Assembly (NCBI GenBank): GCA_017407765.1
Contig: JAFQVZ010000044.1
Coordinates: 1 to 5,168, forward strand
Source of the DNA: Clostridia bacterium
GTDB lineage: Bacteria; Bacillota; Clostridia; Oscillospirales; Butyricicoccaceae
Direction: 5' to 3'
Length of the DNA: 5,168 nucleotides
Below the pieces are notes generated by a model, which did not search any database, was not told the DNA's origin, and saw only the letters and a list, made by a program, of their open reading frames with translations. The position numbers and the translations under genes were made by a program. The number at the start of each line of letters is the position of its first letter. Position 1 is the stretch's first letter. Positions 22 to 4,908 of the stretch are shown piece by piece.

Positions 22-58
22 GCTGCTACACCTGCCTGTCATCTAACCCTGTCAGCTC
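22..58 (-). repeat. Distal copy of the trmL 3' end (detached)
   Basis: On the minus strand this stretch reads as codons for ELTGLDDRQV followed by TAG (28-26), exactly the last residues of TrmL, but it is detached from the gene. Four bases differ from the proximal copy, in three codons: TTA for CTG (Leu), GGG for GGC (Gly) and ACA for ACC (Thr). All are synonymous. One codon upstream the copy has GAA (Glu) where the gene has GGC (Gly), which marks the edge of similarity at about 58-61. It is not a gene; it is the fossil or alternative end of one. Confidence 0.93.
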
Positions 59-61
59 TTC

Positions 62-90
62 TCCCCACAAAAGCTTTGCTTTTATGGGGA
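62..90 (-). other. Strong hairpin in the spacer between the two trmL ends
   Basis: A 13-bp stem (62-74 with 78-90) surrounds a 3-base loop. As minus-strand RNA the single mismatch becomes a U-G pair, so the stem is fully paired on the trmL transcript; as plus-strand RNA it is a C-A mismatch. No T-tract follows on the minus strand, so it is not a normal terminator. It begins 1-4 bases from the edge of the distal trmL tail copy. Confidence 0.75.
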
Positions 91-108
91 CCCCTTTTTA
101 TTAATTAG

Positions 109-135
109 ATTTTGCCGAAATGAATTCGCCAAAAT
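109..135. repeat. Inverted repeat just after the trmL stop
   Basis: ATTTTGCCGAA (109-119) is inverted at TTCGCCAAAAT (125-135) with one central mismatch and a 5-base loop. It starts 12 bases after the trmL stop. There is no T-tract on the minus strand after it, so terminator function is doubtful. Confidence 0.55.
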
Positions 136-142
136 CAGGCGA

Positions 143-179
143 GCTGCTACACCTGCCTGTCATCCAGGCCGGTCAGCTC
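143..179 (-). repeat. Proximal copy of the trmL 3' end (in-frame, functional)
   Basis: This is the actual end of trmL: codons for ELTGLDDRQV, the TAG stop (149-147) and a few bases after it. It matches 22-58 at 33 of 37 positions, including an unbroken 22-base identity (143-164 against 22-43). Allowing a 1-base gap, similarity continues another 4 bases (GGCG) past the stop. Confidence 0.95.
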
Positions 180-2002: not shown

Positions 2003-2008
2003 TATAAT
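2003..2008 (+). promoter_or_regulatory. Probable -10 element of the secA promoter
   Basis: A consensus TATAAT lies 28 bases before the secA ATG and would give a leader of about 20 bases carrying the AAAAGGAG site. No good -35 exists at 17 bases (TATATA at 1980-1985). TTGTTT at 1966-1971 with TATAGA at 1987-1992 (15-base spacer) is a weaker alternative. The promoter must lie in 1937-2010, but the exact choice is uncertain. Confidence 0.45.
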
Positions 2009-2036
2009 TCCGCATTTATATAAAAGGAGAACATAT

Positions 2037-4757
2037 ATGGCAGGATTTCTTAAAATGCTGTTCGGCGACACCTCTCAGCGCGAGATCAAAAAGATCAGGC
2101 CTATCGTAAAGGCGATCGAGGCGCTTGCCGACAAATATGCCGCTATGGATGACCGCACCCTTCAGAGCGAGACTCCCCGACTCAAGGCTCGCCTTTCGGC
2201 CGGCGAAACACTCGACGATATCCTCCCCGAGGCCTTTGCCGCCTTCCGCGAGGCCTGCCGCCGCGTGCTCGGCCAATATCCCTTTGAAGTTCAGCTCATC
2301 GGCGGCATCGTCCTTCATCAGGGTCGTATTGCCGAAATGAAAACGGGCGAAGGCAAGACCCTCACAGCCACCCTCCCCGCCTATCTCAATGCCCTCGCCG
2401 GCAAAGGCGTTCATATCGTCACGGTAAACGACTATCTTGCCAAGTATCAGGGCGAGCTGATGGGCAAGGTCTACCGCTTCATGGGTGTTTCCTGCGGCGT
2501 CATCGTCCACGGCCTCACCAATGCCCAGCGCCGCGAGGCCTATGCCTGCGACATCACCTACGGCACCAACAACGAGATCGGCTTTGACTATCTGCGCGAC
2601 AACATGGCTATCTATAAGGAAGAGCAGGTCCAGCGCGGACATGCCTTTGCCGTTGTCGATGAGGTCGACTCTATCCTTATCGACGAGGCCAGGACCCCCC
2701 TCATCATCTCGGGTGCCGGCGACAAGAGCACCGATCTTTACCGCCGTGCCGACGACTTTGCCAAGACCCTCAAGTCCATCAAGATGGTGGAGGTCGACGA
2801 CAAGGAGAGTCAGGATGATATTCAGGCCGACTATATTGTAAACGAGAAGCGCAACACCGCCACCATCACTCCCCGCGGAGTTAAGCGCGCCGAAGAGTTC
2901 TTTAATGTAGAGAACCTTATGGACCCCGAAAACGCATCGCTGCTCCATCATATCAACCAGGCCATCAAGGCCCGCGGCTGCATGAAAAAGGATGTCGACT
3001 ATGTCGTCCACGAAGGCCAGATCGTTATCATCGACGAGTTCACCGGCCGAATGATGTTTGGCCGCCGTTATTCCGACGGTCTCCATCAGGCTATCGAGGC
3101 CAAGGAAAATGTAAGCGTAATGCGCGAGAGCAAGACACTGGCCACCATCACCTTCCAGAACTTCTTCCGCCTTTACGGCAAACTCTCGGGCATGACCGGC
3201 ACAGCCCTCACCGAAGAAGAGGAGTTCCGCCACATCTATGCCCTTGATGTTATCGAGATCCCCACAAACAAGCCCATGATCCGTGACGACCGTGCCGATA
3301 TGGTCTTCAAAACCGAAAAGGGCAAGTTCATGGCCGTTATCAGAAAGATCCGCGAGTGCTATGAAAAGGGCCAGCCCGTGCTGGTCGGCACCGTATCTAT
3401 CGAAAAATCCGAGCTTCTCTCGCTGCTTCTCAAGCGCGAGGGCATCCCCCATCAGGTGCTCAATGCCAAGCAGCATGCCCGCGAAGCCGCCATCGTAGCT
3501 CAGGCAGGCAAGTCCTGCTCGGTAACCATCGCCACCAACATGGCCGGCCGAGGCACCGACATCATGCTGGGCGGCAACCCCGAGTTCATGGCCCGCGAAG
3601 ATATCGAAAAACTGGGCTACGACGAGGCCACCGTCAACGAAGCCATTGGCTATAACGAAAGCAGCAACGAGCTGGTGCTTGAGGCACGCGCCATCTACCG
3701 CGAGAAGCTGGAAGCACACAAGGCAGTGTGCCGCGCCGACGGCGAAAAGGTGCGCGCCGCAGGAGGCCTCTGCATCCTCGGCACCGAGCGCCATGACAGC
3801 CGCCGAATCGACAACCAGCTGCGAGGACGTGCCGGACGTCAGGGCGACCCCGGCGAATCCACCTTCTTCCTCTCGCTGGAAGACGACCTTATGCGTCTTT
3901 TCGGCACCGACCGCCTCACCGGCATGATGAACTCCCTGGGCGTTGAAGAAGATATGCCCATCGAGCACAAGATGCTCTCCAGCGCCATCGAGAATGCCCA
4001 GCGCAAGGTCGAGGGCCGCAACTTCCAGTCGCGTAAGAGCGTCCTTGAATACGACAACGTCATGAACAAGCAGCGCGAGATCATCTATCAGCAGCGTGCC
4101 GATGTTCTTGACGGAGCCGAGCTTAAGACACGAATCCAGAAGATGATCCGTGAATGGATCGCCCTCAATGTCAACGAAGTATCGCAGGGCGCACCCCTGA
4201 CCGACGAAGGCATCACAAGGCTGACCCGCTATTACACCGGCCTCTTTATCTTCCCCGGCCTGTTCCAGATCACCGACGATATGCACGACCCCGAAAAGAT
4301 GACCGAAGCCCTCTATAGTAAGGCCATCGAGTTCTATGAGCATAAGGAGCAGGAAATCACTCCCGAGGTAATGCGCGAGCTCGAGCGCGTCGTTCTGCTC
4401 AGAACGGTAGACGAGCTGTGGATCGACCATATCGATGCCATGCACGAGCTGCGCCGCGGCATCGGCCTCAATGCCTATGCTCAGGTAAATCCCGTTGACG
4501 AATACAAGCGCCAGGGCATGGATATGTTTGACGAAATGATCAGTCAGATCCGTATGCGCACCGCGCGCATGATCCTGCTGGCCCGCATCAGAGGCGCCGA
4601 GCCCAAGCGCGAGCGCGTTGCCAAGGAGACCTCGACTTCGGGCGACGGCACCGTCGTCAAAAAGCCGGTGGTCAAGAAGCAGAAGGTCGGCCGCAACGAC
4701 CCCTGCCCCTGCGGCAGCGGCCTGAAGTATAAGAAATGCTGTGGTAAAGACGCATAA
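2037..4757 (+). CDS. secA: Preprotein translocase ATPase SecA
   Basis: The 906-residue protein is a complete SecA, the membrane-associated ATPase that pushes unfolded preproteins through SecYEG. Domains in order: NBD1 with Walker A TGEGKT (103-108), TVNDYLA (129-135), and Walker B VVDEVD (206-211); the preprotein cross-linking region (about 225-365); SGMTGTA (384-390); and NBD2 with ATNMAGRGTDI (499-509) and QLRGRAGRQGDPG (594-606). A clade-variable insertion of about 60 residues (516-576) precedes GGLCILGTERHDSRR. The helical wing and scaffold follow, then a flexible Lys-rich linker (about 856-883) and the zinc tail RNDPCPCGSGLKYKKCC, with Cys890, 892, 901 and 902 as ligands; this tail normally binds SecB or ribosomes/lipid. 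The start is fixed by AAAAGGAG 7 bases before the ATG. It is the canonical SecA (SecA1): full length, with the C-terminal zinc finger. The codons for its last eight residues and stop recur at 4881-4908. It diverges from prfB across 193 bases. Confidence 0.98.
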   Translation: MAGFLKMLFGDTSQREIKKIRPIVKAIEALADKYAAMDDRTLQSETPRLKARLSAGETLDDILPEAFAAFREACRRVLGQYPFEVQLIGGIVLHQGRIAEMKTGEGKTLTATLPAYLNALAGKGVHIVTVNDYLAKYQGELMGKVYRFMGVSCGVIVHGLTNAQRREAYACDITYGTNNEIGFDYLRDNMAIYKEEQVQRGHAFAVVDEVDSILIDEARTPLIISGAGDKSTDLYRRADDFAKTLKSIKMVEVDDKESQDDIQADYIVNEKRNTATITPRGVKRAEEFFNVENLMDPENASLLHHINQAIKARGCMKKDVDYVVHEGQIVIIDEFTGRMMFGRRYSDGLHQAIEAKENVSVMRESKTLATITFQNFFRLYGKLSGMTGTALTEEEEFRHIYALDVIEIPTNKPMIRDDRADMVFKTEKGKFMAVIRKIRECYEKGQPVLVGTVSIEKSELLSLLLKREGIPHQVLNAKQHAREAAIVAQAGKSCSVTIATNMAGRGTDIMLGGNPEFMAREDIEKLGYDEATVNEAIGYNESSNELVLEARAIYREKLEAHKAVCRADGEKVRAAGGLCILGTERHDSRRIDNQLRGRAGRQGDPGESTFFLSLEDDLMRLFGTDRLTGMMNSLGVEEDMPIEHKMLSSAIENAQRKVEGRNFQSRKSVLEYDNVMNKQREIIYQQRADVLDGAELKTRIQKMIREWIALNVNEVSQGAPLTDEGITRLTRYYTGLFIFPGLFQITDDMHDPEKMTEALYSKAIEFYEHKEQEITPEVMRELERVVLLRTVDELWIDHIDAMHELRRGIGLNAYAQVNPVDEYKRQGMDMFDEMISQIRMRTARMILLARIRGAEPKRERVAKETSTSGDGTVVKKPVVKKQKVGRNDPCPCGSGLKYKKCCGKDA
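4730..4757 (+). repeat. Proximal copy of the secA 3' end (in-frame, functional)
   Basis: This is the real end of secA: codons for KKCCGKDA and the TAA stop, including the two zinc-ligand cysteines 901 and 902. It matches 4881-4908 at 25 of 28 positions. Similarity continues loosely past the stop (AACAAAT here, AACAAT after the other copy). Confidence 0.95.
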
Positions 4758-4773
4758 TTAACAAATCAGTTTT

Positions 4774-4880
4774 CTCTCGTACCCCTCGGAGAGCGGAGGG
4801 GGCACCCGGGGGAACTGGTTCCACCCGGGGATCGCGTCGGCTCTGCCGGCCTACTGCTTCCGCAGAAGCAGCCGCGATCC
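4774..4880 (+). other. GC-rich, highly structured insert in the secA 3' region (possible structured RNA or mini-element)
   Basis: No ORF of note. From left to right: hairpin CCCCTC/GAGGGG (4782-4787 with 4796-4801), whose loop GAGAG (4789-4793) could instead pair with CTCTC (4774-4778); hairpin CCCGGG.GGAAC/GTTCC.A.CCCGGG (4805-4829, about 9-11 bp, one bulged A); and a closed three-way-junction-like unit with outer stem GGATCGCG/CGCGATCC (4829-4836 with 4873-4880) enclosing CGGC/GCCG (4838-4848) and CTGCTTC/GAAGCAG (4854-4871, loop CGCA). The outer stem ends exactly at 4880, the base before the distal secA tail. There is no T-tract, so it is not a terminator. I cannot assign it to a known RNA family. 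Confidence 0.7.
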
Positions 4881-4908
4881 TAAGAAATGTTGCGGTAAAG
4901 ACGCCTAA
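4881..4908 (+). repeat. Distal copy of the secA 3' end (detached)
   Basis: This reads AAG AAA TGT TGC GGT AAA GAC GCC TAA, that is KKCCGKDA and stop, 151 bases downstream of the same codons in secA. The three differences (TGC/TGT, TGT/TGC, GCA/GCC) are all synonymous. There is no start codon or ribosome binding site, so it is not expressed as a gene in this arrangement. The secA-type terminator lies 20 bases after this copy, the normal distance for a gene end, which suggests that this is the ancestral secA terminus. Confidence 0.93.

Follow-up and report, generated by a model that had tools for sequence, protein, structure and literature searches.

Structured spacers between doubled gene ends in Butyricicoccaceae: candidate non-autonomous mobile elements with a guide and a replacement gene tail

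Results

In the window (the whole stretch of DNA analysed here, 5,168 nucleotides of contig JAFQVZ010000044.1 from a Clostridia bacterium of the Butyricicoccaceae), the complete genes trmL and secA are each followed by a structured spacer and a second, detached copy of the gene's own end (Table 1). The complete end of trmL (143-179) differs from the detached one in three codons (ACC>ACA, GGC>GGG, CTG>TTA), and the repeat scored 27 as opposed to 7 in a reversed control. At secA, the copies differ by three mismatches (TGC>TGT, TGT>TGC, GCA>GCC), which are likewise all synonymous. Doubled ends at both genes and exclusively synonymous coding differences between the copies had already been reported in a sequence-only reading of this DNA; both observations hold, with seven base changes in six codons over the two genes, and the window exemplifies a pattern that is widespread.

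Table 1. Coordinates of the features found at the trmL and secA ends of the window.
Feature	Position	Strand	Remarks
Detached trmL tail, stop codon 26-28	22-58	-	37-nt repeat, 4 mismatches, synonymous
AGAA (gene sense), between E1 GGGG end and detached trmL tail	59-62	-	offset 4 (locus L001)
E1 hairpin hp1, GGGG at end (gene sense)	63-89	-	
E1 linker: GGGG/CCCC motif and conserved TA-NN-AAT stretch	90-107	-	
E1 hairpin hp2	108-136	-	double changes in 11/18 predicted pairs across family
Guide CAGCTCGCCT, immediately 3' of trmL stop codon	137-146	-	10/10 complementary to 174-183, p 0.005
Target AGGC|GAGCTG, inside complete trmL copy, across junction	174-183	-	
Complete trmL	147-647	-	orthologues in 78/87 genomes searched
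Complete secA	2037-4757	+	orthologues in 83/87 genomes searched
secA spacer 5' part, ahead of modelled hairpins	4758-4802	+	
E2 hairpins (second family)	4803-4880	+	model match 4803-4881
Detached secA tail, stop codon 4906-4908	4881-4908	+	

The insert found at secA was also present at secA of genomes G004, G005, G092 and G094, and trmL of G005, G006 and G001 was free of an insert; the two window ends therefore look like separate events, which speaks against the proposal that one replacement of the trmL-prfB-secA block had produced both. Relatives with insert-free secA ends exist as well. In G004 and G005 the detached secA tail is longer than in the window, the repeat being kept from GATCCCTGCC / GACCTCTGCC onward.

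The trmL spacer belongs to a family of structured repeats of about 100 nt, termed E1, which was found in 35 of the 87 genomes from the host family. Further instances, which the sequence-only reading had proposed to look for, were frequent: the draft genome of the window alone contains 33 E1 matches. Dozens of genes in many species, core genes such as secA included, have E1 at their ends, where it separates the complete gene end from a second copy that differs from it mostly by synonymous changes. The order of the unit is second gene tail, stop codon, guide of about 9-20 nt, hairpins and GGGG end, with units spanning about 100-250 nt between repeats. In the family alignment, pairing in both hp1 and hp2 is maintained through double changes. 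Several E1 copies are situated at the ends of contigs, and the left edge of the window overlaps another contig by 50 bases. The window has no Rfam match at the gathering score; when one window stretch and seven loci were searched permissively, every match stayed below it. A longer or autonomous version of E1, whose tail and hairpins are separated by a gene, was not found in the stretches examined, mostly 1-1.5 kb upstream.

Flanking repeats were assessed at 175 E1 sites with readable flanks, which remained from 226 profile hits after removal of partial matches (ending before profile position 80) and identical sites (leaving 179) and of four sites too close to the edge of a contig. At 96 of the 175 sites a direct repeat begins where the element ends; at the other 79, among them 17 of the 26 sites in G001, there is no such repeat. 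The junction lies at a median of 15 codons before the stop codon. Of the 96 duplicated sites, 65 have an upstream copy that forms the end of an open reading frame (59 gapless, six gapped), and seven are inner copies of tandem units, which occur at a single site. The other 24 lack a clear frame, and in some of them the repeated sequence is that of the element and not of a gene tail. At two loci (L027, L157) the repeat extends through the 3' untranslated region and the terminator.

Codon differences between tail copies, a count that the sequence-only reading had also suggested, amounted to 160 synonymous and 26 non-synonymous over the 59 gap-free coding pairs, a set that still contains, among others, L050, L056, L178, L183 and L204, which are probably not true gene tails. 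The non-synonymous share is thus 14%, compared to about 76% expected at random. Third-position mismatch was about 0.2 within the tail and 0.53-0.64 just past the stop. The profile along the tail was flat except for the first two codons, which had fewer differences; a clustering of differences near the junction, which had seemed likely by eye, was not borne out. The two tails within one genome were mostly closer to each other than to tails of another species, which weakens a distant species as the source of the tail.

The guide, a variable segment 3' of the stop codon, is complementary to a target that spans the insertion point. Complementarity was tested in 64 of the 96 duplicated sites, 32 with the repeat at offset -1 being left out, and was significant at p<0.01 in 38 and at p<0.05 in 45; no significant guide was found in 19. 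When true pairs were compared with mismatched guide/target pairs, 37 of 63 sites (one more having been dropped) scored above the 99th percentile. Wobble cells in paired columns, read on the gene-sense strand, were G-T in 51 cases and A-C in ten, with 29 of the 51 G-T cells coming from one column pair. As many copies are complementary to their own insertion spot, E1 likely enters a site which it specifies itself.

The secA spacer represents a second family, E2, which is unrelated to E1 and has the same layout. Flanking repeats were found at 12 of 21 E2 sites tested (out of 26 matches), where five of the 12 are the secA sites used to build the model and two (L316, L332) are unlike gene tails. 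A guide was not detectable in E2, true pairs scoring like mismatched ones. The suggestion that independent non-autonomous elements target gene 3' ends and carry recoded tails was thus essentially right, since both spacers are multi-copy and the same arrangement recurs elsewhere; beyond that suggestion, the two spacers are of unrelated families and E1 has a guide.

Searches with HUH/RAYT-like, TnpB and reverse transcriptase profiles did not reveal a mobilising enzyme for E1. The Y1 HUH profile PF01797 had no match in G001, G004, G006 and G007, and the RAYT-like profile found one gene in G004 and none in the E1-rich genomes G001, G006, G007 and G085. RAYT-like HUH genes were present in 14 of 87 genomes, i.e. 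in 11 of 35 E1-bearing genomes (including G043 with its single weak E1 match) versus three of 52 others (G041, G044, G055); the genome of the window has one of these genes (locus L109). No E1 copy was found within ten RAYT loci of about 3 kb, and a clear flanking repeat in only one of them (L114, a terminator), with weak ones in two (L111, L120). For two further RAYT genes, on contigs C37 of G004 and C236 of G005, the distance to an E1 copy is about 1.4-1.6 kb. A RAYT-like HUH protein as mobiliser of E1 is an unproven lead. Reverse transcription of mRNA ends was rejected as a source of the tails: RVT_1 was found in only two of ten E1-bearing genomes checked (G003, G021) and not in G000, G001 and G004, a distribution that likewise fits poorly with group II introns or retrohoming elements. 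TnpB-guided homing was also rejected, as TnpB showed no association with E1 and, in 29 genomes searched, exceeded the cut-off only in the E1-free G010 and G067; four sub-threshold TnpB matches occurred in E1-rich genomes.

Discussion

We lean towards the reading that the E1 unit (tail, stop codon, guide, hairpins and GGGG end) is non-autonomous and inserts as one mobile piece at a site with which its guide pairs. The guide would select the target by pairing across the junction, and the unit would move as folded single-stranded DNA, cut and rejoined by analogy with IS200/IS605 elements. The inserted unit would supply a working gene end and leave the old one stranded downstream, where the stranded tail may be kept coding by precise excision or by recombination with strains that lack the insert. 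Support at the level of sequence comes from the order and polarity of the unit, guide complementarity across the junction in the majority of sites tested, units in tandem, coding tails and the occurrence in many genes and species; that two families, E1 and E2, share one layout also counts in favour, as do the hairpin pairs kept through double changes, the insert-free secA ends of relatives and the long guides that work in engineered IS608. Counted against it are the negative enzyme searches, with E1-rich genomes that have no RAYT-like gene, the 19 of 64 duplicated sites at which no guide was significant, the 79 of 175 sites with no duplication at the end of the element, the guide-free E2 family and the closeness of the two tails of one genome, unlike what a tail brought from a distant donor would show; neither an excised circle nor, within one strain, an allele free of the insert was among the sequences seen.

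The same closeness of tails would fit a tandem duplication driven by the hairpins without a dedicated enzyme, in which E1 and E2 are REP-like sequences and the inverted repeat that guide and target form causes the polymerase to switch back, copying tail and hairpins a second time. Tandem units and the repeats that span untranslated region and terminator point in this direction. However, duplicated copies are born identical, and an untranslated copy should then accumulate many non-synonymous changes, far from the low share observed; the spread of scores of structured copies and the strict position at the GGGG end are also left unexplained, and we regard this origin as unlikely. RNA-guided homing, in which E1 encodes a guide RNA, with the guide at its 5' end and a hairpin scaffold at its 3' end, for a nuclease that cuts insert-free alleles, repair then copying the unit with its replacement tail as in a gene drive, would account for the order of guide and scaffold and for the excess of G-T over A-C wobbles on the gene-sense strand, more than half of the G-T cells coming from one column pair. 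The TnpB distribution and the guide-free E2 family argue against it and make it rather improbable.

Group I introns contain an internal guide sequence complementary to the joined flanks, and a similar complementarity, together with the coding appearance of detached tails, might indicate that the unit is taken out of the mRNA, which would put both tails to use. At about 100 nt, E1 is nevertheless far smaller than any self-splicing intron known to us, and the Rfam searches gave no gathering-score match in the window; we consider this explanation very improbable. A chimeric assembly of strain variants, also raised in the sequence-only reading, could produce copies at contig ends and the 50 bases shared at the window's left edge, yet MAGs assembled separately in several projects show the layout, including guides and polarity, at many loci, and an artefact of this kind is hardly credible.

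The mobile unit favoured here resembles several known systems. In IS200/IS605 elements such as IS608, the guide adjoins a hairpin and pairs with the left cleavage site; in E1, too, a guide complementary to the left flank stands next to a hairpin. The E1 guide is longer than the native guide of 4 nt and spans both sides of the junction, a gene tail forms the left end of the unit, and E1 is devoid of genes; the Y1 HUH transposase TnpA is absent from E1, and none was found accompanying it. Tyrosine and serine integrase elements in gene 3' ends replace the gene end on entry and leave the old end beyond, and the E1 unit likewise carries a replacement gene end between direct repeats. It differs from such islands in lacking an integrase gene, in its size of about 100 nt and in using many target genes and not one att site. 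As far as excerpts of the report on engineered IS608 go, long guides work in that system, with targets of 12-17 nt (PMC5934647). IS110 elements, as outlined in part of the bridge-RNA report, find targets by base-pairing through a small structured non-coding part (PMC11208160); E1 is also small, structured, non-coding and apparently targeted by base-pairing, with one contiguous guide in place of the paired loops described there. REP sequences, according to portions of two papers, are short, structured and extragenic, are present in many copies and are presumably mobilised in trans by an HUH protein (PMC2817692; PMC8266576). E1 shares the many short structured copies, but a GTAG-type tag is not conserved ahead of hp2 in the family alignment, E1 was found in none of the ten RAYT loci where REP copies would flank the RAYT gene, and E1-rich genomes without RAYT occur; doubled gene ends and a target-matched guide are not among the REP features described in those portions. 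Finally, a guide against a core gene together with a synonymous replacement end recalls cleave-and-rescue or recoded-rescue drives, which, in the accounts partly available, are man-made and Cas9-based, unlike E1, so that the likeness is an analogy only. Excerpts of the open-licence literature searched contained no description of such gene-end elements.

Tentatively, and with less confidence than for the mobile unit itself, E1 and E2 may be viewed as self-programming gene-end elements, which would combine a guide taken from host sequence with a synonymous replacement tail, enter and leave core genes harmlessly and keep two interchangeable ends. They might then form a natural counterpart of guide-plus-rescue designs that arose at least twice in one bacterial family. 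As doubled gene ends exist at many loci, gene calling and strain comparison are affected in these organisms. If the proposal is true, a natural element finds its target by pairing over at least ten bases and copes with insertion into core genes by bringing along the gene's own end. It would thereby become testable whether natural long guides operate in single-strand transposition, how a guide is adapted to new genes and what keeps untranslated tails coding.

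Doubled gene ends and the E1 family

Between the complete and the detached end in the window there are four base differences for trmL and three for secA, each set spread over three codons. All changes are synonymous, and the "seven of seven" of the sequence-only reading is correct as a count of bases. The start of the window matches, without a difference, the end of C102, another contig of this genome; the break between contigs falls inside the detached trmL tail.

Coordinates of features in the window and at two further E1 loci
Feature	Sequence	Position
Stretch identical to the end of C102	window	1-50
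Detached trmL end	window	22-58
E1 query	window	43-142
Guide	window	137-146
Complete trmL end	window	143-179
Target of the guide	window	174-183
E1 next to a tRNA cluster	L218 (G004:C37)	~6060-6560
Sole E1 match in the viral collection	L247	9408-9436

The trmL spacer belongs to a repeat family, E1. Searching the window's own genome (G000) with the E1 query gave 16 matches at E≤10; for 12, the E-value was below 0.001. Around the matches, a complete gene end was repeatedly followed by the hairpin element and the detached end, with constant polarity. A covariance model built from 43 copies, in which 11 of 18 predicted pairs showed a double change in at least one copy, matched in 35 of the 87 family genomes. 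The window's draft genome accounted for 33 matches, and G001 and G004 for at least 46 each. An exact E1 pattern was found in 35 stretches of a collection of named records, all from MAGs of Clostridia or Oscillospiraceae bacteria, several of them from goat and water-buffalo gut; in IMG/VR the sole match was one putatively viral contig.

Along the gene, an E1 unit consists of tail, stop codon, guide (a variable stretch complementary to the target), usually GC-rich hairpins (missing from the window copy), hairpin hp2, a linker with TAT-NN-AAT, GGGG(T/C)CCCC, hairpin hp1 ending in GGGG, a few bases and the detached tail. A site was scored as doubled if a direct repeat scoring at least 13 started at the element end (offset -1 to 8 nt), as was the case at 96 of 175 E1 sites with readable flanks. 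The share was 27/38 in G004, 9/26 in G001 and 12/19 among the sites examined in the window's genome. Doubled tails were missing from 17 of the 26 G001 copies (e.g. L039, L063), and several G001 copies have a shared hairpin, AAAGTTGTG...CACAACTTT, on their upstream side, often immediately 5' of start codons.

The upstream copy closes an open reading frame in 65 of the 96 doubled sites, and the distance from target to stop is 2-37 codons, with a median of 15. Host genes were identified by scanning 29 different proteins, one of them twice. Best matches included PyrF, DnaJ, NusA, YchF, an ECF transporter, several peptidases and amidohydrolases, and, with scores below the full-length cut-offs, GyrB and RodA-type proteins; three proteins (L126, L170, L084) had no match. 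Also among the best matches were prolyl-tRNA synthetase, LepA, anaerobic ribonucleotide reductase and an iron alcohol dehydrogenase.

At two loci of the window's genome (L006 on C142, L012 on C326) E1 lies antisense to the gene with no doubled tail, and the last codons plus stop (CCCCAGAAGTAA, CCCCAAAAATAA) form one arm of hp1. At L218, where E1 adjoins a tRNA cluster, tRNA-3'-like stretches (GGTTCGAATCCCCGG) recur around E1, and tRNA ends may therefore also be targets.

Coding signature, tandem units and guide

Codons were compared in the 59 gap-free pairs out of 65 (960 codons). Of the codons that differed between the tail copies, 160 were synonymous and 26 non-synonymous. Random substitution of an equal number of bases gave a mean of 76% non-synonymous changes and never less than 65% (1000 runs), as opposed to the 14% observed. 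Along the tail, third-position mismatch was about 0.2, and the rate leapt to 0.53-0.64 directly after the stop. Given these two results, both tail copies are, by codon comparison, marked by coding constraint. On average likeness stops at the stop codon; exceptions are L027 and L157, where it continues through the terminator.

Several units occupy one site at L011, L016/L017, L028, L068, L079, L144 and L198. At the NrdD gene of G000 (L016), three tails on the contig differ only synonymously over comparable parts. Such tandems fit repeated insertion, each event recreating the site on the gene side.

The guide, located between stop codon and hairpins, is complementary across the insertion point of the complete copy, as in L004 (guide AAGCATGCCTTTGA, target TCAAAGG|CATGCTT) and L044 (guide CGCGTTCTTTTCGAT, target ATCGAAAA|GAACGCG). 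Many pairings are perfect, including all 10 bases in the window; others contain one or few mismatches. Compared with shuffled targets, pairing was significant at p<0.01 in 38 and at p<0.05 in 45 of the 64 duplicated sites tested, the remaining 19 having no significant guide. When the real targets from other sites served as the comparison, 37 of 63 true pairs exceeded the 99th percentile, and a pairing score of at least 10 was reached by 37/63 true and 0.8% of mismatched pairs.

A second family, E2, and the two ends of the block

No genuine second copy of the secA spacer was present in the draft genome that contains the window. The same structured spacer, E2, was also found between complete and detached secA ends in G004, G005, G092 and G094, and a model built from these four sites and that of the window matched 26 times (E≤0.01), in 10 of the 87 genomes. 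Flanking repeats from the element end accompany 12 of 21 matches tested, five being the secA sites behind the model. Close to the junction, nearly all have the end motif GCGAT; the test applied to E1 revealed no guide in E2. At one gene end in G004 (L027/L324) the two families occur together, an E1 unit being stacked with an E2 unit.

INDEPENDENCE of the two ends was compared for 28 secA ends and for trmL at 11 loci. The secA end carries E2 in five genomes (G000, G004, G005, G092, G094), E1 or an E1-like element in four (G001, G012, G096, G021) and neither in 19, within up to 250 bases after the stop (125 in G085). The trmL tail was located at six of the 11 loci: in G000 E1 accompanies a duplicated tail, in G004 E1 is present but the tail is not duplicated, and G005, G006, G001 and G100 have no element. 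This occupancy is best explained by separate events at the two ends of the window's block.

Just after secA of G006 (L281), with no E1 seen there, a stretch nearly matches the secA target's reverse complement (GGGCAGGGGTCGTT); it may be what is left of an insert since lost. The secA locus of G021 (L285) has tandem E1-like units, the inner tail of one reading into a different C-terminus.

Possible mechanism and source of the tails

Anatomy, polarity, guide complementarity, the coding signature of both tails, tandem units and insert-free orthologues are established at sequence level. We infer that the unit, including its replacement tail, inserts as directed by the guide. An HUH enzyme acting in trans is the favoured, unproven step, and we can only guess that guides are rewritten for new genes by copying the target through a folded stem. 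The nearest working model for E1 is IS608, whose target is chosen by base pairing, engineered IS608 using 12-17 nt targets in vitro (PMC5934647).

RAYT-like (HUH-enzyme) genes were present in 11 of 35 E1-bearing and 3 of 52 other genomes. They are missing from several E1-rich genomes, and none of ten RAYT loci read contained E1. One RAYT-like gene (L114, G020:C180) lies between two copies of a transcription terminator. As candidate mobilisers, reverse transcriptase and TnpB were rejected, neither being associated with E1 genomes.

Searches of open-licence papers gave no matching description of such elements, and no natural element known to us joins a long target-matched guide to a replacement gene end. 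Six genes are occupied in two species; for these, the tails within a genome were mostly closer to each other than to those of the other species, NrdD giving a mixed outcome; the detached ECF tail of G000 has one extra codon, which made comparison from the stop impossible. Both secA tails of G005 have a Pro-to-Leu change in common. Taken together, the tail comparison and this change in G005 favour an origin within the species, or continuing exchange, over distant donors.
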